DNA of 64,000 bases. It comes from an uncultured Sulfurovum sp. Lineage in GTDB: Bacteria; Campylobacterota; Campylobacteria; Campylobacterales; Sulfurovaceae. The DNA lies in contig CACVAU010000084.1 in NCBI GenBank assembly GCA_902727915.1, positions 7,962 to 71,961 on the forward strand, read 5' to 3'. The notes under the pieces are model-generated. The model was not told where the DNA came from and did no database searches. It saw only the letters and a list, made by a program, of their open reading frames with translations. Position numbers and translations under genes: made by a program. Of this stretch, positions 20,786 to 64,000 are shown piece after piece. How positions within the stretch are numbered: the stretch's first letter is position 1; each line of letters starts with the position of its first letter.

Positions 20786-29469
<8,684 letters not shown>

Positions 29470-42964: not shown

Positions 42965-44634
42965 ATTTATTAGAAATATTAAATGGTTTAGGAATTTATG
43001 CTTACGCACTGGGAGTTGTTTTATTAGTTCTCATCTTAGGAATTATGTTTGTTCGTCTTTACAAAAAAACCACAAAAGAAAAAGCATTTATTCGTACTGG
43101 TTTAGGGGGTGCCAAAGTTATTTTAGATGGAGGAAGTATCATATTACCAATGGTTCATGACCAAACCATTATTAACCTCAACACGTTAAAACTCGTAGTT
43201 ACCCGTCAAAATGAACAATCTTTAATCACCTCTGATAAATTAAAAGTTGATGTTATTGTCGAATTTTTTGTACGGGTTAAACGTGATGAAGACTCTATTT
43301 CTCGTGCAGCTGCAACCTTAGGCTCAAAAACTTTACGTCCAGAAGATTTAAAAAATCTTATTGAAGGTAAGTTGGTAGATGCCATTCGTTCTGTTGCATC
43401 ACGTACAACCATGGAGTCACTGCATGTTGAGCGTAAAGATTTTGTTCAGCAAGTTTCCAATACCGTTGCTGAAGACCTTGATGCCAATGGATTGGAGTTA
43501 GAATCAGTCTCTTTAACCTCTTTAGATCAAACCCATATCAAATACTTCAATGAAAACAATGCTTTTGATGCGCAAGGTTTACGAAAAGTTGCTGAAATTA
43601 CAGAAGCAAAAAGAAAAGAACGTATTGACATAGAAGAAGAAACTAAAGTTCAAATAGAACTCAAAAAACTTGAAGCAGAAAAGAAAATTTTAACCATTAG
43701 AGAAGAAGAGGCTCTCGCTAGAGCTTCACAAGAATCTAATACGAGAATTGACCGTTCTAAACAATCTAAAGAGGCTGAAGAGTCAGAAATTTTAAATGCA
43801 AAATCAGTTGCTTTTGCAAATATCCAAAAAGACAAAGAGATTCAAGAACGAGAGATCTTAAAAACACGAAAATTAGAAACTGACAAAATTCAAAAAGAAG
43901 AAGCCCTCAAACTGGCTCAACAAGAAAAAGAAATTAAAATTTCTGAAAAATCAAGTGCTGTTGCCATGGCTGATGCCAAAGCCAACCTTGAAAAAGCCAA
44001 AGAAGTTACCACACAAGAAGCCGTCACAACGGCAAGAGAAACAGAAATTGCTAACAGAGATAAATCGTTAGCCCTCATCAAAGCAATGCAAGTAGCTGAA
44101 GAGGAGGCTGTGGGTAAAAAGTTACTTGCCCAAGCAGAAAAAGAAGCTGCCGAAGACAAAGCTGATGCACGTAAAATTGGAGCGCATGGAGAAGCCGAAT
44201 CTATCAAAATCATATCAGATGCCAAAGCCAAAGAACATGCTGTTGAAGCAGAAGGTCAAAAACTTTTAAATGATGCGCTAAATTCACTCTCACCAGAACA
44301 AATTAAAAAAGAGATTCAACTCTCAATGATTGAACGTCTTCCTGAAATAATTGAACAGATGATAAAACCTGCCAATAACATCGATAGCATTAAAATTGTT
44401 GATATGGGTAATGGGGGTAAAAACCTAATGTCCAATACACAAGAAGGTGACAATGCCTCAAAGGCTTCTTTACCTGAACAAATCACCAATGCAATGATGA
44501 ACTATTCTGTAGGGAGTACCATGATTAATGACATGTTAAAAGAGTCTGGTCTAAGTGAAACGGTAGGTGTATCAGAACTCCAAGACTTTTTAAACAAAAA
44601 CACCATAACAAACAGTGATAAAAGTGAATCATAA
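42961..44634 (+). CDS. Flotillin-family (SPFH) membrane protein
   Basis: A 557-residue flotillin/YqiK-like protein. A single N-terminal membrane segment (residues 12-32) is followed by the SPFH/Band 7 domain (about 45-200, LGGAKVILDGGSIILPMVH), then a long coiled coil rich in EA, EK and KA (about 215-430). A short C-terminal region follows. Such proteins form oligomeric rafts organising the inner membrane. It is directly followed by a NfeD-like gene, the standard partner. Confidence 0.9.
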   Translation: MNLLEILNGLGIYAYALGVVLLVLILGIMFVRLYKKTTKEKAFIRTGLGGAKVILDGGSIILPMVHDQTIINLNTLKLVVTRQNEQSLITSDKLKVDVIVEFFVRVKRDEDSISRAAATLGSKTLRPEDLKNLIEGKLVDAIRSVASRTTMESLHVERKDFVQQVSNTVAEDLDANGLELESVSLTSLDQTHIKYFNENNAFDAQGLRKVAEITEAKRKERIDIEEETKVQIELKKLEAEKKILTIREEEALARASQESNTRIDRSKQSKEAEESEILNAKSVAFANIQKDKEIQEREILKTRKLETDKIQKEEALKLAQQEKEIKISEKSSAVAMADAKANLEKAKEVTTQEAVTTARETEIANRDKSLALIKAMQVAEEEAVGKKLLAQAEKEAAEDKADARKIGAHGEAESIKIISDAKAKEHAVEAEGQKLLNDALNSLSPEQIKKEIQLSMIERLPEIIEQMIKPANNIDSIKIVDMGNGGKNLMSNTQEGDNASKASLPEQITNAMMNYSVGSTMINDMLKESGLSETVGVSELQDFLNKNTITNSDKSES

Positions 44635-55093: not shown

Positions 55094-55169
55094 GGCTCCA
55101 TAGCTCAGTTGGTAGAGCAAAGGATTGAAAATCCTTGTGTCGGCAGTTCGATTCTGTCTGGCGCCACCA
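55094..55169 (+). tRNA. tRNA-Phe (GAA), island integration site
   Basis: A full cloverleaf with D-arm GCTCAGTTGGTAGAGC, anticodon loop TTGAAAA between AGGAT/ATCCT and T-loop GTTCGAT, with encoded CCA. The acceptor stem GGCTCCA / TGGCGCC has one mismatch (T4 facing C69). The 3' part of the gene and the following 44 bases are repeated at 62137-62229, marking this as the attachment site of the island. Confidence 0.95.
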
Positions 55170-55213
55170 CTTACAAATCCCATAAAATCTTACTTTCAAG
55201 CAACTTTTTTAAT
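55121..55213 (+). repeat. Left direct repeat (att site in tRNA-Phe)
   Basis: A 93-base copy running from the anticodon stem of tRNA-Phe to 44 bases past its CCA end. It matches 62137-62229 at 89 of 93 positions; mismatches fall at the fourth base and at three positions in the downstream tail. It is the left boundary of the island. Confidence 0.92.
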
Positions 55214-55340
55214 CAATCAAATTATAGCATAAATATTTTTTAGTAACTGTATTTTCTTCTTTATCAAACAGAGTCAAATCAAAATGATAAATCTTAGCTA
55301 AATTCCTATAAGCCTTGTCTCTTTTTATCAGCCTCATCAT
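55209..55340 (-). CDS. Short ORF at the island's left edge, doubtful
   Basis: A 43-residue reading frame (MMRLIKRDKAYRNLAKIYHF at the start) next to the left repeat and opposite the truncated vapD. No family recognised and no clear Shine-Dalgarno. It may be a remnant of a longer gene or chance. Confidence 0.2.
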   Translation of the reverse strand: MMRLIKRDKAYRNLAKIYHFDLTLFDKEENTVTKKYLCYNLID

Positions 55341-55351
55341 ATTTAGCCTCG

Positions 55352-55576
55352 TATAATCCTGCCTATGATGAGATTAGAAAAACAATGGATAATCTAGGTT
55401 TTAACTGGGTTCAATGAAGTCTATATCTAGCTAGGGAAGAGCATAACTCTTTAACTACAGTTTATAAAACCATTGATAGACTCAAAAATATTAATTGGTT
55501 TAAAAACTCTGTTAGAGATATTAGAGCTTTTAAAGTTGAGGATTGGTCTGATTTTACTGAAATTGTAAAAGGATAA
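55352..55576 (+). pseudogene. vapD: VapD fragment with UGA at an invariant glycine
   Basis: The frame reads YNPAYDEIRKTMDNLGFNWVQ, then TGA (55415-55417), then [19 protein letters not shown] and [20 protein letters not shown], ending TAA. This is the C-terminal three-quarters of VapD, a Cas2-like toxin endoribonuclease found in toxin-antitoxin settings. In VapD the residue between Q and S is glycine, so TGA stands exactly where Gly is required. The N-terminal strand (about 17 residues, including the catalytic Asp region) is missing; upstream sequence does not restore it and an in-frame TAG lies near 55298. It is therefore a truncated gene, either UGA=Gly coded like its neighbours or a GGA-to-TGA mutant of a standard-code gene. 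Confidence 0.8.
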
Positions 55577-55593
55577 TTTTTTATCCTTTTTTT
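55568..55593 (+). terminator. Terminator after vapD
   Basis: A 9-bp stem (AAAGGATAA / TTATCCTTT) with a 4-base loop and a 7-T run overlaps the vapD stop. Confidence 0.8.
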
Positions 55594-55600
55594 CTTCAAC

Positions 55601-55621
55601 AAAAAAAGGGAACTAATCCCT
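55601..55621 (-). terminator. Terminator after the small recoded gene
   Basis: On the minus strand a 5-bp stem (AGGGA / TCCCT) with a 5-base loop is followed by seven T residues. It overlaps the TAG stop at 55620-55622 and faces the vapD terminator. Confidence 0.65.
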
Positions 55622-55901
55622 ATACTTCATAAGATATATTTTCCCAATTATCTAAAAAGTCTACTCATAGAATAAATAAGTCACATAGTGGAGAATAATA
55701 CAATGGCATATCTGTAATTTTAGCTATATATTCACCAAGGTATCTAGGTATAACAAAATATTGATAAATATCTTTATGTTCATCACAATCCTCATCATAA
55801 TCATTTCATGCCTCTAATTCAAGTTCATAATCTATTTTGATAATATTGTTAAACAGAACCATGTCTATGTCTTTTGTAATCTCTTTAAATGTTTTTTTCA
55901 T
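55620..55901 (-). CDS. 93-codon UGA-recoded small protein, unknown function
   Basis: Read with UGA as glycine, this is one open frame of 93 codons from ATG (55899-55901) to TAG. UGA occurs at codons 32 and 79 (contexts ELEA-G-NDYDED and LFIL-G-VDFLDN), and there is no TAA or TAG inside. GGT also codes Gly once (YLGEY). The product is acidic, ending VDFLDNWENISYEV, and has no signal peptide or recognised family. There is no Shine-Dalgarno before the start, unlike most host genes here. It is not found by standard-code gene calling. A terminator overlaps its stop. Recoding is supported by its neighbour at 57899-59119; in isolation the evidence would be moderate. Confidence 0.75.
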
Positions 55902-56397
55902 AATGTATCTAATCAAAATATAAATATTAGGATAAATTAATCCTACAAATTAAACACAAGATGGGTGGTACTAGTCCAATTTATTTTAAAAAAATTGGAT
56001 AACATCTTTTAATGATTATCTGAATTTGATGAATTTTTAGGAGGAAAATATTTTTAAAATAAATTTGATGAGTGCCAGTTTTTGAGAGATTCTTTTTTTG
56101 TTCCAATTAAAAAATTAGAAACAAAAAAAGAACCCTCAAAACCATTTTGTATAATTGATTTGGGGTTGATTGACCTCTTTGATGATTTTCTTGGGAGGTG
56201 ATGATAAGGGTATAGTATATTGGGTATTTTAGAGGTTATAGTTATTAATATTATTAAATACAAAACTCTTCAATATTATTTTATTTTCTCTAATTAGGAT
56301 AAAAAAGATATAATATTTATTGAATAAATTTTTAGATATAAAATTAGATTTTAAGATAAATGAGAGTTAAGATTGAATTTTAAAGAATAGAGGATGT
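55902..56397. other. Intergenic region with a possible broken reading frame
   Basis: About 500 bases without an intact gene. A hairpin TAGGAT / ATCCTA lies near 55929-55945. The plus-strand frame 56058-56207 reads protein-like (NKFDECQFLRDSFFVPIKKL, then PFCIIDLGLIDLFDDFLGR) and ends TGA TGA TAA, but a TAA at 56055 cuts it from a related-looking upstream stretch (LSEFDEFLGGKYF). It may be a decayed gene. TATAAT near 56308 could be the promoter -10 of the repeat protein, and the remainder is AT-rich. Confidence 0.4.
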
Positions 56398-57513
56398 ATG
56401 AGTAAATTAAATAAAGTTTCAGCCATTGGTTCTTTAACTTCGGATATGTTTAAAGCTGAAAACCTTGGTATCACAAAAGCTTTAGAACACTATGAAAAAA
56501 TAAGTGGTATTGGTTCTCTTGGATTAGATATGTTTAATCATAAAACAGCATATGAAGAAGCTATGGATAGTATGAATAAAGTTTCAGCCATTGGTTCTTT
56601 AACTTCGGATATATTTAAAGCTGAAAACCTTGGTATCACAAAAGCTTTAGAACACTATGAAAAAATAAGTGGTATTGGTTCTCTTGGATTAGATATGTTT
56701 AATCATAAAACAACATATGAAGAAGCTATGGATAGTATGAATAAAGTTTCAGCCATTGGTTCTTTAACTTCGGATATGTTTAAAGCTGAAAACCTTGGTA
56801 TCACAAAAGCTTTAGAACACTATGAAAAAATAAGTGGTATTGGTTCTCTTGGATTAGATATGTTTAATCATAAAACAGCATATGAAGAAGCTATGGATAG
56901 TATGAATAGAATTTCAGCCATTGGTTCTTTAACTTCGGATATGTTTAAAGCTGAAGGCTTTGAAAAAAGTAGAGCATTACATAATGCCCTATATGAAACT
57001 ATTTCTATAGAACCTTTAGCTGTTTTAAATCCTACTTATGAAGTGTCAGAATATGAAATCATTACAGCTTTAGAAATTTTTAAAAATGAAAGTCTTCCTA
57101 ATATAGTTGAAGAAGTAAAACAGTTTTCTCCTCATTTGAAAATGACTTTGTTTTGGATATTTGATAAAATACTTATGGTGTTTATAATGGGGCTAATTGT
57201 AAATCACACATCTGATGTTTTAAAAAGTAGTAATGATAAAACACCCACCCAGCAAATTCAACAGATGAAACGAATTCCTAAAAAAATTAATTCTTCACTT
57301 GATCTTACTTATTATAGATTTATAACAGCAGATATTTTAAATGTACGAACAAAACCATCAATTAAGTCAGATATTTTAGGTAAGTTAAAAAGAGGAGATT
57401 TTATTGAGGTTTTAGATAAAAGAAAAAATTGGATTAAAATTTTATGTAAAAAAGATGGTGTTTTAATTCAAGGATGGACATTTACTAGATATACCCATAA
57501 ATTTGAAAATTAA
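56398..57513 (+). CDS. 55-residue tandem-repeat protein with membrane segment and SH3 domain
   Basis: A 371-residue standard-code protein. Residues 5-169 are three nearly identical 55-residue units followed by a partial fourth (170-186). Each unit is itself two related halves sharing K(V/I)S(A/G)IGSL and DMF. A unique segment follows, then a hydrophobic stretch (residues 249-268, MTLFWIFDKILMVFIMGLIV), and a C-terminal SH3-like domain (about 305-368: ADILNVRTKPSIKSDILGKL, then WIKILCKKDG). There is no N-terminal signal, so the repeats are probably cytoplasmic and the SH3 domain exported, or the reverse. GAGG lies just before the ATG. Function is unknown; anchoring or cargo binding is conceivable. 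Confidence 0.85.
   Translation: MSKLNKVSAIGSLTSDMFKAENLGITKALEHYEKISGIGSLGLDMFNHKTAYEEAMDSMNKVSAIGSLTSDIFKAENLGITKALEHYEKISGIGSLGLDMFNHKTTYEEAMDSMNKVSAIGSLTSDMFKAENLGITKALEHYEKISGIGSLGLDMFNHKTAYEEAMDSMNRISAIGSLTSDMFKAEGFEKSRALHNALYETISIEPLAVLNPTYEVSEYEIITALEIFKNESLPNIVEEVKQFSPHLKMTLFWIFDKILMVFIMGLIVNHTSDVLKSSNDKTPTQQIQQMKRIPKKINSSLDLTYYRFITADILNVRTKPSIKSDILGKLKRGDFIEVLDKRKNWIKILCKKDGVLIQGWTFTRYTHKFEN
56410..56955 (+). repeat. 165-bp tandem repeat array (3.3 copies)
   Basis: Units begin at 56410, 56575, 56740 and 56905 with exact 165-bp spacing and no frame change. Copies differ by only a few bases (M to I in copy 2, A to T in copy 2, K to R in the partial copy), pointing to recent duplication. 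Confidence 0.95.
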
Positions 57514-57542
57514 TTCTATGTAAAAATTTTTAAACAGAAGTC

Positions 57543-57764
57543 TTAAAAAATATCCCCAAACCCATGAATAGCATTATTCTTAACTTTATCCCTAAAGTCA
57601 TAATACCTAATCATCTGTGAGGTCTTATGACCTGTAGCATTCATAATATTGTTATAGTTCTCATTCTTGTTCAAAGAAATTTCAATAAAAGATTTTCTAA
57701 ATGAATGAGGAGTAATCTTTTTATCAATACTCAATTTATTACACATATTTTGAGTAATCTCCAT
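57543..57764 (-). pseudogene. Tyrosine recombinase C-terminal fragment
   Basis: The frame contains ITPHSFRKSF and ATGHKTSQMIRYYD, the second-Arg box and the catalytic Tyr region of tyrosine recombinases. The reading frame can be followed upstream for about 11 more codons (GLNKPIFSDYI) and then meets a TAG inside the palindrome at 57793-57840; the rest of the catalytic domain and the whole N-terminus are missing. It differs from the integrase at 61250-61988 and so represents a second recombinase, cut at the point where the recoded segment begins. Confidence 0.8.
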
Positions 57765-57792
57765 AATATAATCACTAAAAATAGGCTTATTT

Positions 57793-57840
57793 AACCCAAA
57801 TTGCTAGTTAAACGCCAATGTTTGACTAGCAATTTGGGTT
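57793..57840. repeat. 48-bp palindrome at the truncated recombinase / recoded gene junction
   Basis: Two 21-base arms with a single mismatch surround a 6-base loop (GCCAAT). The arms share AACCCAAATTGCTAGT and its complement. Weaker symmetry continues outward (CTTAT on both sides, 57786-57848). The palindrome ends the truncated recombinase frame and stands just before the terminator of the recoded ATPase. Confidence 0.9.
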
Positions 57841-57870
57841 ATCATAAGGTTTTTTAGTGAGGAAATAAAA

Positions 57871-57886
57871 AGGATTTTTTAATCCT
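57871..57886 (-). terminator. Terminator after the recoded ATPase
   Basis: A 6-bp stem (AGGATT / AATCCT) with a 4-base loop is followed by a T-rich run on the minus strand, 13 bases after the ATPase stop. Its AGGAT-type stem resembles that of the vapD terminator. Confidence 0.65.
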
Positions 57887-57898
57887 CAAAATCTTTTT

Positions 57899-59119
57899 TT
57901 AAAATATTAAATCATCAGTATCCAATAGATCAATTTTATTGATTTTAGCATACTCTATTGCTTCTTTTGTGAATCATGAATGAGAAACAGCTAAATACAG
58001 ATAATTTGTTTTTGAATTTTTCTTATTCCAATCAATTAGTTCAACTCTTCTTTGTAACTTTTCAAGCTCTTTAACTCACTTTTTATCTTTAGTATATTTA
58101 CATTCTACTCAAAATATAAAATTATCCATTTCATTGACTCCTACAATATCAATTTCTTCTGTACTTCATTTCCACCATTTTCATAATTGAGAAAATTTTA
58201 ATGGATAATTTCATGACATTAAAAATTCTTTTACAATATCTTCATAAGTAAATCAAAGTCATTTTCTAAAATTTAGATAAAAATTATCTATGATGTAATC
58301 ATAATTTCATTCTTCTATAAAAGATTCATAAGGCAGAACATATCTCAAAAAGTTTTTAAAGTAAATATTCCTTATATGATAGGTTCATTTAAAAGAATTA
58401 TTATGTGGTACTTTAATCTTTTTATGCACTATTCACAAGTCAATAAGACTATTTAAATCTTTCTCTAGCTCATTATATTTATTTCGATATCAACTATCTT
58501 TACTTCTAATATTGTAAACATAAATTAATATATCTTTCTTTGAAGTTAAGCCATTAGCAATGGCTTTTAAAATTGAATGTTTATATTTATTTCATCTCAA
58601 CTCTATGTCTAAAGTTTGTTTTGTTTCTACATACAAATTTTTGATAAATATTTTTTCCATCAATGAAACATAAGAACCTAAAGCTATTAAACATAACTTT
58701 GGAATACTTTCATTTAGTCATATTTTATAACTATCAATTACCTCTACCAAGTCCCAAAATATAGAATTGTTTATATATTCAAAATTTTGAAATTCATCTA
58801 AAATAACAATAATATTATGTTTTTCAGAATACTCAAATATATTAAAAAATAACTCTTTTAATGAGTCTCATTTAATATCAATATTCAATGATTCATGTAT
58901 TTTTAATTTGATATTTTTAACCTCTATTTGTTCAGTATTATTTCAATAAATTAGAAGATAGAGGAAATTTACTTTTGATTCTTTTACTGTGTTTATGACT
59001 AATGTGGTTTTTCAAACTCTTCTTAATCATAAGTAAACTTTGAAACAAAAACCATTTTTAGAGTCTTTAATTATTCCCTTTAATTCTCTTTTCTCTTCTT
59101 CTCTGTTATAGAATTTCAT
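57899..59119 (-). CDS. UGA=Gly recoded archaeal-type ATPase with DUF234 domain
   Basis: Under the standard code no frame here exceeds 60 residues. With UGA read as glycine, the minus strand holds one frame of 406 codons, ATG (59117-59119) to TAA. It has 18 internal UGA and no UAA or UAG. With Gly at those sites the protein shows Walker A LGLRRVGKTTL (both glycines are UGA, codons 31 and 36), Walker B IIVILDEFQNF (103-113), LIALGSYVSLMEK (145-156) and a C-terminal DUF234-type region with LGKWWKGSTEEIDIVG, FGVECKY and LAVSHSGFTKEA. This is the Arch_ATPase/DUF234 architecture. Trp is encoded by TGG, so UGA is not Trp. Only five Gly codons are GGN. There is no Shine-Dalgarno. Such coding is that of Absconditabacteria and Gracilibacteria. 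In this host, translation should stop after residue 30. Confidence 0.93.
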
Positions 59120-59343
59120 AATTATATTTTTTACATCTAAATATTATGTATTAGTATAATGCATGTTATTTAAAATGCAAATATTTTTAATATTACATAA
59201 ATATTTTGAGTTATTTTAGTCTATAAACAGGTGAAATATCAACTTACATAGTTTCTTAATGTAATATGAAAAATCTACAGTTTATTTGATAGTTATACTT
59301 AATGACTCTTTCATATTTCTCCTATCAATTTATAAAATAATCT
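59120..59343. other. AT-rich spacer between the recoded ATPase and fic
   Basis: No gene or tRNA is visible. On the minus strand ATTATACTAA near 59150-59162 could serve as a -10 element for the ATPase gene. The segment is the likely second junction of the recoded block. Confidence 0.35.
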
Positions 59344-60252
59344 CTACTTTTTAGTAAGTTCTAAAACCCTCTTATAAAAATATTCCCCTTTAATATTCTC
59401 TTCTCCATTAACTGAAATAATTTCTAAATATTTAATCAAAGAATCTTTTACATTTTTAGCTATGAATTTATGAAAAATTTCTTTATCATCTTCTGTTTGA
59501 GTAGTTTCTAAACTTTTATAATACTCATCTCTTAACTCATTTTGACTTGAAATATTGGTTATAGGAAAACCATGTTTAAGTAAAATTAAATTCATTAGTA
59601 ATCTTGAAGTTCTTCCATTACCATCAACAAAAGGATGAATAGTTACTAATCTTTCATGCATCTCTGCTGATAAGATTACAGGGTTTAAATTTTCTTTGCT
59701 TTCTTCATAAAATTTAAAAAAATCTTTCATCAAACTTTCAACTTGTAAAAATGTAGGTGGTTTATGTGCTGAACCACTTATCATAACATCTACATTTCTA
59801 TATTTACCTGCATTTTGAATATCAACATTTTTTAAAATTAAATGATGAATATCTAAAAGTACTCTTTTATCAAAATCTATTTCATTTTTAACTAAGTCTT
59901 TGATGTAATCAATCGCTTCTTTATGGTTTACTATTTCAAAATGTTCTCTAAGAGATTTACCACCAATAGTTACCCCTTTATTAAGAACTAAAGATGTCTC
60001 TTGAAGTGTTAAAGTATTTCCCTCAATCCCTGTACTATCATAAGTAAAAACTTCATCTAAATATTGGTCTAATTTTTCAATATGAATACCTTGAAGAGGT
60101 CTAAAACTATCTAATGACTTTTTTAAATCTTTTATCTGTTCTAATATAACATTTAAACTCTCACTATTAGGATAAAGTTTTAATAATTTAAAAGTACTAT
60201 CATTCATAATGGCAGTAATTAATTTTAAAAATTCTTCTTTTGTATCAGACAT
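59344..60252 (-). CDS. Fic-domain protein (class II)
   Basis: A 302-residue Fic/DOC protein that would transfer AMP to target proteins. The catalytic motif HPFVDGNGRTSR is at residues 206-217. The inhibitory helix motif STGIEGN (residues 73-79, S/TxxxEG) precedes it, marking class II, where the toxin-like activity is self-restrained. The C-terminus is helical. It begins 21 bases after the HTH gene on the same strand, so the two form a pair. Reading is standard code, ending TAG. Confidence 0.92.
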   Translation of the reverse strand: MSDTKEEFLKLITAIMNDSTFKLLKLYPNSESLNVILEQIKDLKKSLDSFRPLQGIHIEKLDQYLDEVFTYDSTGIEGNTLTLQETSLVLNKGVTIGGKSLREHFEIVNHKEAIDYIKDLVKNEIDFDKRVLLDIHHLILKNVDIQNAGKYRNVDVMISGSAHKPPTFLQVESLMKDFFKFYEESKENLNPVILSAEMHERLVTIHPFVDGNGRTSRLLMNLILLKHGFPITNISSQNELRDEYYKSLETTQTEDDKEIFHKFIAKNVKDSLIKYLEIISVNGEENIKGEYFYKRVLELTKK

Positions 60253-60273
60253 TTTTCTTCCTTTTATAAAATA

Positions 60274-60654
60274 TTAACTTTCCCATAAATTCTTTTGATA
60301 CTCTCCAGTTAAAAACTGATTTTTTGTATCTTCTATTAATTTTTCAATTTCACTATTCTCTAAACCTTGATTTTCTAAACTAGATGTATCTTGAACTAAG
60401 GAAACAATGTATAAAGCCTTTTCCTTAGCTCTATTCTCTTTTAAAATAGAAACATCAAGGATTATATTACCTGCAAAGTCTAAGCCCATTAAATTGGTTA
60501 TTTTTTCAAGTGTACTAAGTTTAACATCTTGACCATTAAAGAATCTAGTAACCGTTCTATTACCTAATTTTGAAAGTTTAGCAATATTATTTAAAGTCAT
60601 ACCCAGTTCAATTTTTCTTAATTTGATTCTTTCTAAAACCTGTTTTTTATTCAT
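60274..60654 (-). CDS. HTH (XRE-like) regulator paired with fic
   Basis: A 126-residue protein with an N-terminal helix-turn-helix (about 10-60: LGMTLNNIAKLSKLGNRTVTRFF). The C-terminal half is helical and charged. It is directly upstream of fic and likely regulates the pair; whether it is an antitoxin is not decidable. Standard code. Confidence 0.8.
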   Translation of the reverse strand: MNKKQVLERIKLRKIELGMTLNNIAKLSKLGNRTVTRFFNGQDVKLSTLEKITNLMGLDFAGNIILDVSILKENRAKEKALYIVSLVQDTSSLENQGLENSEIEKLIEDTKNQFLTGEYQKNLWES

Positions 60655-61249
60655 TACAAAAGCCTAAAAAACTATATACCTTAGTATGCCATAAGTGACT
60701 AATAAATTAAATAATAATTCAATATTTTTAGAACTTAAAATATTTTTTCCTTATTTATAAAATAAAAAAATAATATTGAAAATATTATTAATCCATATGA
60801 ATTGGCTTCGGGTGTGGCGAATTGATAAGGATATTTGAGTTTAAAACTTAGAAAATATTTGGCTATCATAACTACAACTTGTAGAAGTGGGTATGTAGCG
60901 AATAGCAAAATGCTTTCTTCCTTGGAGTTATTATAGGTCAATATCTTCTAATTTAGTGAAGTATGGCTTTTAAATTTTGGACTGAGCTTGTGAGGGAAAA
61001 ATTGAAAAGTCTTACTGAATGGTTAAATTCAAATATCCTCAGCAATGGGAAAAGCTTAGTGATTAGTGCCTTTAGGTGAGTACCACGTACTCATTCCGAA
61101 GGAACACAAGCACGACCCCTTGTGGGTAAGCCCCTAATAAAAATAAGGAACTTTATCTAACTATCCTCACGCCCTATCGGTTGTGGATTCATCACGTTTT
61201 ATTCCGTTACACTTCATAAACTTTCGCGATGAATTCTAGTTTTTCTATA
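60655..61249. other. Structured, less AT-rich noncoding stretch
   Basis: About 600 bases with no supported protein. The 68-residue frame at 60735-60941 looks spurious. The part 60790-61240 is clearly less AT-rich than the rest of the island and contains hairpins, such as TGAGTAC/GTACTCA (61076-61092) and CACAAG/CTTGTG (61105-61123). This suggests a structured RNA or a dispersed repeat element. I do not recognise a known family. Confidence 0.4.
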
Positions 61250-61988
61250 TCAAACCACACCATCAAAAATAGCCTTTATAACCTCATGCCTTTGACTTGG
61301 TATTAAATGAGCATAACGAAGTGTCATATCAAGTTTCTTCTGTCCTAGTTGCTCTTTTATTTGTAAAATATCAGCACCTGCAAGCGCCATCCAAGAAGCA
61401 TGAGTATGCCTAAGACTATGAACAGTAATTCTATACTTCTCTGCTGTCACATTTCTTTTAATTTCATTGTTATTTATGTCAGTAACTACATAAGGAGTAT
61501 TTTTAGGTAAGTCTTGAAGAATTTCATAAACTAAATCAGTCATATAAACTTGTCTAGCATTTCCATTTTTTGTAGATTTAAAATAAATTAGTCTTTGTAA
61601 AAAATTTATGTCATTCCAAGTAAGGGTAGCTACTTCAACAAATCTAGCACCAGTATAGAGCAATAAAACAGTTAAATAGTACATTGTTTGACCGTCTTTA
61701 GCTTTTAGCCCAAATAATATAATTTTCATAAGCATTTAAAAAAGTAAAACTCTTTTTTCTACCCTTAATTATTTGTTGTGGGTCTTCCCCTAATCTTATT
61801 GCATTTACAAGTTCAGACCTTTTTGCATAACAATAATGCTCTGTAATTCCTTGTGACTTTTCCCCAACTTTAACCCTTTTTAGCTTGTTATTAGCGTCTT
61901 TATAGGTAATATAGTAAGTAAAATCCCCATTTTTTTTATGATAAAACTGCACGGAACTACCGTATTTCTTTGATTTGATGTATGCCAT
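61250..61988 (-). pseudogene. Integrase (tyrosine recombinase), broken
   Basis: The N-terminal part begins at ATG 61986-61988 (MAYIKSKKYGSSVQFYHKKN) and runs to a TAA after ENYIIWAKS. The catalytic part, in another frame, has TGARFVEVATL (first Arg), HSLRHTHASW (His and second Arg) and LRYAHLIP (Tyr). The core-binding region expected between them is missing (roughly 80-110 residues) and the frames are shifted. Thus a deletion with frameshift has inactivated the gene. It sits next to the right repeat, as expected for the integrase of a tRNA island. Confidence 0.88.
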
Positions 61989-62136
61989 TTTTAGTAACCT
62001 ATTAGTAACCATATCTGAAAAAACATGGTAAAATTTGATTAAATATAGTATAGCACCAAACCTTTCTAAACACCACAGTTTAGGAGCTACAGAGAGGTTT
62101 GAGCAAGTTTTCGAAAACATGAAAAAAGGTCTATTT

Positions 62137-62229
62137 AGGGTTGAAAATCCTTGTGTCGGCAGTTCGATTCTGTCTGGCGCCACCACTTACAAACCCCATA
62201 AAACCTTACTTTCAAGAAACTTTTTTAAT
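62137..62229 (+). repeat. Right direct repeat (att site)
   Basis: A 93-base copy of 55121-55213, including anticodon-loop-to-CCA of tRNA-Phe and 44 bases of tail, with 4 mismatches. It is not a full tRNA since the 5' half is absent. It is the right boundary of the island. Confidence 0.92.
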
Positions 62230-62283
62230 AATCTATTATTAAACATATTTTTATAATTTTAGTAACTTAACTATTTATTTTAA

Positions 62284-62417
62284 TTCTTCCTCCTTATTCT
62301 CCTGAACTCAATATTATTGAAACCCTTTGGAAGTTCATGAAGTATATTTGGATTCGGATAATATGCTTCTTTATATTCAAAAAATATTTGATAACTATGG
62401 TAAACTTTTTAGGATAA
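62284..62417 (+). pseudogene. IS630-type transposase C-terminal remnant
   Basis: The plus-strand frame reads ILPPYSPELNIIETLWKFMK, the C-terminal catalytic block (with Glu) of IS630/Tc1-like DDE transposases, then degrades and ends at TAA. The upstream domain is absent, and no terminal inverted repeat was identified. The rest of 62230-62527 is AT-rich without a gene. Confidence 0.75.
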
Positions 62418-62527
62418 ACTTTTCTTAGGGTTTAATTATTATGGGGTACTTAGCATTCTTTGTTCCATAATTCGCCATCCAAGCTTTTATGGAACTCTTC
62501 CTCTTTATTTCTTTTTAACTATACTAC

Positions 62528-62986
62528 TTAACGCTTCCATAAGTTCACTTCATTCATCTTCTCACCACTAAGAGCATAAATCTCATCACCAAAACCAAAA
62601 GTAATCTCGCCCGATGTAGGTGTTAAGGCATAAAGCACCAACTCACTAGTCCCCATTAAAATACCAAAAGCCCCATCTTCAAAATTAGGCATAATTTCTT
62701 TATACTTCGAACTGGCACTATCAACTATGCTTACCTTACACTCTAGAGTAGTTCTATGACGCTCATGTGTACTTCTATTTGAACTTTTATCTTCTACAAA
62801 AAGTAAGGAAGCCTTAGGGTTGGCTTGAAGATTTTCTACATGTGTCACAATACTTGGTACAGAGACATAAACCACTTCACCATCATAATAAAAAGAGGCA
62901 TAAGAAGAAAAAGGATGTCCATCTTCACCTTTAGTATTGATAGCAACACTTTGAGACTTTCTTAAAAATCTACTCAAATTTTCCAT
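62528..62986 (-). CDS. PNPOx-like (HugZ-type) flavin/haem-binding protein
   Basis: A 152-residue pyridoxamine-5'-phosphate-oxidase-like split-barrel protein. SVAINTKGEDGHPFSSYASFYYDGEVVYVSVP near the N-terminus (landmarks GHPFSSYASF) is the family core. Relatives bind FMN or, as HugZ, haem. The ATG at 62986 follows GGAG and is preferred over the reading from 63022, which overlaps the upstream gene. It is directly downstream of the FtsH-like gene and probably co-transcribed. Confidence 0.85.
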   Translation of the reverse strand: MENLSRFLRKSQSVAINTKGEDGHPFSSYASFYYDGEVVYVSVPSIVTHVENLQANPKASLLFVEDKSSNRSTHERHRTTLECKVSIVDSASSKYKEIMPNFEDGAFGILMGTSELVLYALTPTSGEITFGFGDEIYALSGEKMNEVNLWKR

Positions 62987-62987
62987 A

Positions 62988-64000
62988 TTAATTACGCTCC
63001 TTATATTGTCTAATCTCCTCAAATATCTCTTCTTTAGATAAAACCCAACGCTCTATAAGTACCGATGCTAAATGTTCAATTAACGCTTGTTCATCTTTTA
63101 AAAGAGTCAAAGTCTCAGCATACAACAGAGAAGCTTTAACTTCCATTTTACTGTAAGCTTCTTTCTTAAGCGTGTCTAATCCATCCAACTTTAACTTCGA
63201 GGTACTATAGGCAGAAGTCTCTATAAACAAATGGTTCAATATACGGGTAATCTTCTCTATATCATTCGCTGAACCTGTTGTAATGTTCTGCTTACCAAAA
63301 ACCAACTCTTCAGCTGCCACACCACCATAGAGTATACGCACTTCTTTTTCAAGTTCAGCAATGCTATGAAGTAACATGTCGTCAGATTCAGATAAGACAT
63401 ACCCAAGTGCATTGACACGTGAGATATTTTCAGAAGAGATTTTAATGACTTTCATTTGCTCTTCGGTCTTTTCCATGTCATTCTCATTGTCTGCTAAAGT
63501 CTGTTTAAAGTTCGTTATAAAATGCCCTATTTCATGGATAGAAATAATATGTCTTTCTTTCTCTTTGTTCTTTGTCGTCTTACGATTCGACTGACCTATC
63601 ATCACCACTTCAAATGCTTTCATAAGATGTTCATGGTTAACCTGTTCTTGTTTAACAATCGCCAGTAAAGAAGCTTCTTGCACAATCGTTTGCAACGTTC
63701 TAGGACTTGTCCCTGAAAATGCCTTAGCTAACTTAGTCACTTCTATGCTATCATCTTTATTTTCCACAGGTTTTAGGAAATGAACCAATAACGCTTCACG
63801 CTCTTCTTCATTTGGTAATCTAAAGTGTATCTTCTTTTTAAATCGTGCAGCCATCGCTTCATCTAACTGCATGTTAGACTCATCAAAGTTAGAAGCCACA
63901 ATGGTAATAATACGCACATCATTAATGGTCTTAACACCCTCTAAATGTGTTAACAATTCATTAGGAGTGTCATCAGCCCATTTGTCACGTGACTGCCCAC
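62988..64000 (-). CDS. FtsH-like AAA metalloprotease (partial, 5' end outside window)
   Basis: The frame is open to the window end. It carries the end of an AAA+ domain (IITIVASN sensor region, then AMAARFKKKIHFRLP with the arginine finger area), then the metalloprotease domain with HEIGHFI (HExxH zinc motif) and later LYGGVAAEELVFGKQNITTGSANDIEK, a conserved FtsH block. It is more divergent than housekeeping FtsH, so it is probably a second, specialised copy. The N-terminal part, including Walker A and any membrane anchor, lies beyond 64000. The PNPOx gene begins 1 base after its stop. Confidence 0.88.
   Translation of the reverse strand, partial: GQSRDKWADDTPNELLTHLEGVKTINDVRIITIVASNFDESNMQLDEAMAARFKKKIHFRLPNEEEREALLVHFLKPVENKDDSIEVTKLAKAFSGTSPRTLQTIVQEASLLAIVKQEQVNHEHLMKAFEVVMIGQSNRKTTKNKEKERHIISIHEIGHFITNFKQTLADNENDMEKTEEQMKVIKISSENISRVNALGYVLSESDDMLLHSIAELEKEVRILYGGVAAEELVFGKQNITTGSANDIEKITRILNHLFIETSAYSTSKLKLDGLDTLKKEAYSKMEVKASLLYAETLTLLKDEQALIEHLASVLIERWVLSKEEIFEEIRQYKERN

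Follow-up and report, generated by a model that had tools for sequence, protein, structure and literature searches.

A predicted ATPase-nuclease gene, very probably written with UGA as glycine, in a tRNA-Phe island of a Sulfurovum-like contig

How does a gene that stays open only when UGA is read as a sense codon come to lie among standard-code genes? The question arises from a stretch of 64,000 nucleotides (the window) of contig CACVAU010000084.1, assembled from an uncultured Sulfurovum sp. The answer that we consider probable is that a gene with UGA as glycine, likely derived from a bacterium using genetic code 25 or from its mobile DNA, sits in a tRNA-Phe island of a Sulfurovum-like genome that uses the standard code. 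In such a host, the gene is predicted not to be translatable.

The UGA-containing frame and the meaning of UGA

The gene and the parts of it discussed below are as follows.
57899..59119, minus strand: ATPase-nuclease gene, UGA as Gly (frame, Pfam, homologues)
59006..59029, minus strand: residues 31-38, presumably the Walker A stretch, with UGA at residues 31 and 36 (coordinates from the frame)
58643..58649, minus strand: approximate junction of an in-frame internal deletion (comparison with the relatives P0003 and P0004)
58097..58156, minus strand: E322-x-D324...E339-x-K341, which we take to be a PD-(D/E)XK-like motif, in the DUF234/Mrr_cat part (conserved columns, fold)

The initial annotation described a frame of 406 codons with 18 UGA and no internal UAA or UAG, and its coordinates and counts are exact. 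The frame starts with ATG and ends with TAA. It also contains five GGN and four TGG codons, and UGA makes up 18 of the 23 Gly codons. The chance of 406 codons without TAA or TAG is about 2e-16 for random sequence of the gene's own base composition. The run free of these two stops extends over 414 codons, compared with a longest run of 184 in 1,000 dinucleotide shuffles of 57300-59700.

Long UGA-only frames by themselves prove nothing. The antisense shadows of two real genes in the window are also open under code 25, one at 43059-44489 on the minus strand (476 codons, 10 UGA) and one at 23805-24842 on the plus strand (345 codons, 11 UGA), which is a warning against screens that use frame length alone. 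An antisense shadow was ruled out for the ATPase frame, as the ORF list of the window has no standard-code ORF of at least 100 codons opposite it and the encoded protein (P0001) has homologues. Each of the three plus-strand frames of the region contains 15-22 TAA. P0001 matches the Pfam families DUF234 (7.5e-19), ATPase_2, AAA_14 and Mrr_cat, and it is this homology, not the length of the frame, that identifies a real gene. Selenocysteine at UGA appears implausible, given 18 UGA codons, many of them on Gly columns.

The protein search with P0001 scored 7,993 candidates, 166 of which passed E 0.001; 120 of these proteins were listed. The residues at the UGA columns were taken from 117 of the listed homologues, and the remaining three (P0002-P0004), which carry Trp at most UGA sites, were left out. 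Gly accounts for 39.5% of the 1,912 residues at the UGA columns, whereas it accounts for 4.4% over all columns; at the GGN columns of P0001 itself the value is 36.2%. The mean BLOSUM62 score at the UGA columns is 1.18 for Gly, the best of the 20 residues, followed by Ser (-0.14), while Trp scores -2.06. The assignment of UGA to Gly in the initial annotation is thus upheld, as is its claim that the Walker A stretch needs Gly at both UGA sites: all 113 homologues with a residue there (117 aligned) have Gly at residues 31 and 36. Residue 289 is Gly in 104 and residue 313 in 110 of the 117 homologues. The expectation of Gly at nearly all UGA columns was only partly borne out. Gly is best overall, but in the wider family it reaches only 0-3% at five of the 17 columns with data (residues 59, 84, 176, 287 and 337, the last of which falls inside the E-x-D...E-x-K motif), and column 134 has no aligned residue among the 117 homologues. 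Four of the five Gly-poor columns are Trp in P0003 too.

The three proteins left out of the alignment are informative in a different way. P0002, encoded on a separate contig of 2,016 bp, is the protein of the window with Trp at every UGA. Of the 18 UGA sites of P0001, 14 are Trp in P0003, two Gly, one Asn and one Asp, whereas in P0004 nine are Trp, three Gly and six other residues. The Trp in these database translations presumably stands for UGA. Two of the GGN sites of P0001 are also Trp in P0003, and the four TGG sites are Trp in both P0003 and P0004. Read in this way, UGA and GGN exchange between the relatives while Trp stays TGG, in agreement with the earlier statement that TGG encodes Trp and UGA does not. 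From these sequence comparisons, we regard it as nearly certain that UGA stands for Gly in this gene.

The encoded protein and its relatives

P0001 contains the hallmarks of its family, namely Walker A, an acidic Walker B pair (D108 E109), DUF234 and E-x-D...E-x-K. It had been described as full-length, which is not correct: compared with P0003 and P0004, about 74 residues are absent in frame after residue 158, and the region between the ATPase core and the following domain is incomplete. The structure predicted with Gly at UGA is confident (pLDDT 88.9, pTM 0.63). Foldseek matched the whole model to AAA+ chains with TM scores of only 0.2-0.3. When its best 1,000 matches were re-aligned at the domain level, the N-terminal part matched the archaeal proteins PAB2304 (2qen) and SSO1545 (2fna), and the C-terminal part matched 1y88, 2vld, EndoMS (5gke) and Can2 (7bdv). 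A sequence search of the PDB with a four-row subfamily profile gave no match at 0.01. Judged by sequence and predicted fold, P0001 combines an AAA/STAND-type ATPase with a PD-(D/E)XK-like nuclease domain in one chain. In PADLOC, residues 2-154 matched PDC-S27 (5e-20) and other families weakly. Since PDC-S27 is a candidate family and the other matches are weak, a defence function is a guess.

The best matches had been expected in Absconditabacteria or Gracilibacteria. Instead, the nearest relatives of P0001 are the metagenome proteins P0002-P0004, which are not assigned to these groups, and a second protein search with the four-row profile returned 200 proteins, none close beyond these three. 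Genome contigs were also scanned for ATPase homologues; 91 loci were confirmed, in a step that read UGA as a stop, and 80 were kept. Most of the higher-scoring loci among those kept belong to archaea, Bacteroidota and other standard-code groups. One of the 80 is titled Gracilibacteria, from a Candidatus Gracilibacteria MAG (JAMONT010000035.1, L068), with 16 UGA in the matched stretch. Among the 353 genomes of the Gracilibacterial class, with at most four first-look candidates scored per genome, ATPase matches were found in 12 places in 10 genomes: six places with 14-17 UGA (in five genomes), one with two and five with none. In the extended frames of the six UGA-rich loci, UGA makes up 71-94% of the Gly codons. 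Overall, the UGA-rich homologues of this class have 14-18 UGA, TAA as the stop codon and a GC content nearby of 19-22%.

In a tree of 80 rows, P0001 joins P0003 (99%) and P0004 (100%), and this subfamily is on a long branch of its own. The tree does not nest P0001 within the loci of the Gracilibacterial class, though the position of the long branch is provisional, and UGA use needs four changes on it. A source in standard-code Campylobacterota, named in the initial annotation as the opposing possibility, is not indicated: ATPase-family matches occur in 71 of 175 Sulfurovum-family genomes, but these homologues are distant from P0001 in the tree, and the listed places contain no UGA (two contain UAA).

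Mobile DNA was searched as well. Scans of viral contigs with P0001, a further query (A2) and three queries from the neighborhood of the gene described below (a hairpin arm, the protein P0243 and a recombinase remnant) found no relative; tblastn against phages gave three weak partial matches to P0001 and one weak match to the recombinase remnant. P0001 also matches 92 plasmid records, none of which reaches 60% identity; the best among the matches listed has 25.6% identity over 98%. Hence, the code of the donor is clear, and its lineage is not pinned.

The tRNA-Phe island and its surroundings

The surroundings had been described as standard-coded, and the flanks indeed match Sulfurovum-family genomes. 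MurD, whose gene borders the island on the left, shares 85-90% identity with three listed proteins from uncultured Sulfurovum sp. The DNA from murD to tRNA-Phe is matched in 168 of 175 genomes of the family of a Sulfurovum MAG (L067, the same as G002), which we take to be Sulfurovaceae, with up to 87% identity (G525: 87%). The stop codons of 39 ORFs selected from the 64 in the window are TAA in 27, TAG in nine and TGA in three, and two of the three ORFs stopped by TGA are Pfam-recognised genes. Six tRNAs are found within the 64-kb window, none of them with a UCA anticodon that would read UGA.

The features of the island are given below.
55094..55169, plus strand: tRNA-Phe, left attachment site (tRNA scan)
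55121..55213, plus strand: left copy of a 93-nt direct repeat, attL-like (repeat search)
55298..55576, plus strand: VapD-like remnant lacking the N-terminal part, with a single in-frame UGA (homologues)
55620..55901, minus strand: P0243, 93-codon frame with two UGA, no clear homologue (frame)
56398..57513, plus strand: SH3-domain protein, standard code (domain match, repeats)
57543..57803, minus strand: tyrosine recombinase, C-terminal remnant (family and genome matches)
57786..57848, minus strand: long hairpin at the point where the recombinase gene is truncated (repeat search, folding)
59344..60252, minus strand: Fic-family gene, standard code (family match)
60274..60654, minus strand: HTH regulator beside the Fic gene, standard code (family match)
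61250..61735, minus strand: tyrosine integrase, catalytic part, one piece of a broken gene (family match)
61698..61988, minus strand: likely N-terminal part of this integrase, read in a different frame (sequence only)
62137..62229, plus strand: attR-like right copy of the 93-nt direct repeat, with 96% identity to the left copy (repeat search)

The 93-nt repeat consists of the 3' part of tRNA-Phe and the DNA downstream of it. Its two copies are 7,016 bp apart and bracket an island of about 7 kb. The integrase pieces adjoin the right copy, and the putative N-terminal piece has no family match of its own in the domain scans. In two related genomes (G518 and G519) the insert is absent, and an FtsH-like gene, which in the window lies beyond the island, follows within about 50 bp of tRNA-Phe. 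These two genomes also lack 62230-63012, a stretch of about 780 bp past the right repeat that contains a PNPOx-like ORF, so the right border of the insert is not exactly the repeat. The locus thus has the tRNA gene, the direct repeat of its 3' end, the integrase and the insert-free relatives of a tRNA island, with an inexact right border. In another relative (G523), about 6 kb of other DNA is found at the same site, and sequence comparison suggests a hotspot for insertions at tRNA-Phe (55174-63012 in the window). Two relatives also contain, near tRNA-Phe, a 27-bp stretch that in the window lies at the start of the integrase (61988-62014; L121, 589-615; L124, 14513-14540).

The SH3, Fic and HTH genes contain no UGA. 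The SH3-domain protein has weak matches to an amidase (lysis) and an ssDNA-binding family, and three repeat copies (spacing 165 nt, 92-96% identical) are located at its start (56397-56979). The Fic gene and the HTH gene upstream of it (59344-60654, minus strand) weakly resemble a 'mobile mystery' B/A pair. Among the eight island proteins scanned, no phage structural family was found; the matches are to integrase, regulator, Fic-like and unknown families. About 500 bp at 60700-61240 are without a clear gene and have a locally higher GC content (38.7% at 61000), with no Rfam match at the gathering score.

The recombinase remnant has matches in two of 40 genomes tried, one strong (G040, Gracilibacterial class; 48%, 8e-18) and one weak (G053; 25%, 2.7e-4). 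No match was obtained in 20 near genomes of the Sulfurovum family. The gene in G040 has 10 UGA and five GGN codons, and it is the only strong relative found. This genome was put among the 40 because it had already matched in an earlier DNA comparison, and the Gly codons of the remnant itself are all GGN (three GGG and one GGT); therefore, the link to the Gracilibacterial class is a lead only. At the DNA level, the only close match in the 353 genomes of that class is to 99 bp of the recombinase remnant, and the DNA matches at E 1e-3 or better, in 67 of the 353 genomes, are nearly all short, chance-like and AT-rich.

The hairpin is about 50 nt after the stop codon of the ATPase gene and has arms of 22 nt, which differ by one base, and a loop of 6 nt. 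A 122-nt stretch containing it folds with -41 kcal/mol (z -8.3). Its arm has no other copy in the window (17-mer, at most three mismatches) and no exact copy (16-mer) in 133 loci. An integron attC site was considered and is not claimed, as no unpaired spacer was seen by eye. The terminator scan found no intrinsic terminator here.

Two further island frames hold UGA. In the VapD-like remnant there are two GGN codons and a single UGA, which aligns with Gly in two plasmid relatives. Its nearest relatives are standard-code plasmid genes. Since two of its three Gly-type codons are GGN and its relatives are standard-coded, a simple nonsense change appears as likely as recoding. P0243 may be a second code-25 gene. 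Searches for the VapD-like remnant and P0243 in the 353 Gracilibacterial-class genomes, and for P0243 in the 175 Sulfurovum-family genomes, gave no match; there is no known positive for these searches, so the null results are uninformative. With the integrase in two frames, the VapD-like gene without a start, the recombinase without its first part and the ATPase without about 74 residues, the island looks to be in decay.

Origin of the gene and comparison with known systems

The evidence from the code, the Sulfurovum-like surroundings and the position of the gene within an inserted stretch makes transfer across the code barrier the best reading. The initial annotation had called the evidence for such a transfer strong; the interpretation stands as the best available, but the place of the gene in a Sulfurovum chromosome rests on one contig. 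A code-25 bacterium or its mobile DNA would have supplied the ATPase gene to the tRNA-Phe island, which would have brought it into the genome through the integrase, a phage or DNA uptake. Host ribosomes would stop at codon 31, and the gene would be silent cargo. In the donor, the AAA/STAND-type ATPase would drive the PD-(D/E)XK-like nuclease, plausibly in defence or in competition between mobile elements. The intact frame suggests a recent arrival if the gene is unselected and the contig is sound.

An assembly chimera, in which the UGA gene of a Gracilibacterial or Absconditabacterial population of the same sample was joined to a Sulfurovum contig, is the rival that survives best, though we consider it unlikely. 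The same protein is also encoded on the separate 2,016-bp contig (P0002), the GC content drops locally to 20-22% across the UGA gene, and the hairpin lies at the left junction. On the other hand, the gene is inside an island with att-like repeats and an integrase and has standard-code genes on either side, and the arms of the hairpin differ by one base, unlike a fresh foldback artefact. These observations are not proof, but the repeats, the integrase and the standard-code genes on both sides favor a real insertion.

It is very improbable that the gene functions as part of an element at home in both codes, by means of a host suppressor tRNA or read-through or by return to code-25 cells. Apart from the in-frame deletion the frame is intact, and in simulations the chance that an unselected frame has acquired no UAA or UAG was 0.07 after 30 substitutions and fell to 0.013 after 50. 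Excerpts of PMC10746230 and PMC13059738 describe dual-code phages and a code-25 phage with a tRNA-Gly(TCA). Against such an element, the window has no tRNA with a UCA anticodon, the ATPase itself lacks about 74 residues, and the broken integrase, VapD-like gene and second recombinase give the island a decaying look. A related conjecture, to which we give only slightly more weight and which is still quite improbable, is a mobile element that moves back and forth between code-25 Patescibacteria and the Sulfurovum cells on which these live, with a recombinase readable in both codes and a UGA-locked ATPase-nuclease that is silent in the standard-code partner and active only in the code-25 one.

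Decay of a native standard-code gene by point mutation has a negligible probability and was ruled out. GGA can become TGA by a single change, and the two other gene-like island frames also hold UGA. This route does not explain 18 UGA without any UAA, UAG or frameshift, as the simulated chance of no UAA or UAG is below 0.001 by 75 substitutions (substitutions only). P0003 has Trp, presumably UGA, at 14 of the same 18 sites, and the homologues of the Sulfurovum family are only distantly related, with no UGA in the places listed. The earlier statement that this is not an ordinary pseudogene is therefore right in that stop codons have not simply accumulated in a native gene; functionally, it would be a pseudogene in a standard-code host. 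A donor with UGA as Trp (code 4), suggested by the Trp at most UGA sites in the database translations of P0002-P0004, is dismissed with equal firmness by the UGA-column scores (Trp -2.06, Gly 1.18), by the invariant Gly at the two Walker A sites, and by the TGG sites, which stay Trp while the UGA sites alternate with Gly in P0003 and P0004.

If the contig is sound, the UGA gene in the Sulfurovum-like genome is tangible evidence that DNA has crossed from a bacterium with UGA as Gly into a standard-code one. By title or abstract opening, no report of a code-25 gene in a standard-code genome was found among the top-ranked papers of the open-licence PMC literature. An excerpt of PMC10811913 mentions Gracilibacteria alongside Sulfurovum in biofilms of sulfide springs. 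Standard annotation breaks up UGA-rich frames, and with a screen of complete genomes for such frames one could test how strongly the code barrier acts on the entry of genes as distinct from their use.

The gene resembles those of Gracilibacteria (BD1-5) and Absconditabacteria (SR1), in which UGA is the main Gly codon and GGN codons are few; UGA as Gly in BD1-5 was validated by proteomics, as an excerpt of PMC6851277 states. It differs from them in its internal shortening and in its location on a Sulfurovum-like contig where the other genes are standard-coded. Compared with other AAA_14/ATPase_2-DUF234 ATPases, the copy in the window lacks about 74 residues after the ATPase core. The island is like tRNA-targeted integrative islands in its tRNA-Phe, the 93-nt repeat of the 3' part, the integrase at the far repeat and the insert-free relatives, and unlike them in its split integrase, its foreign-code cargo gene and the approximately 780 bp past the right repeat that are also missing in relatives. 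The excerpts of PMC10746230 and PMC13059738 also describe UGA-dense phages and prophages of Gracilibacteria and Absconditabacteria, some of the phages being compatible with both codes, and the gene studied here is likewise UGA-dense and on mobile DNA. Those phages are found in, or directed against, code-25 hosts, whereas here the UGA-dense gene is in a standard-code contig, in an island with no phage structural family among the eight proteins scanned.
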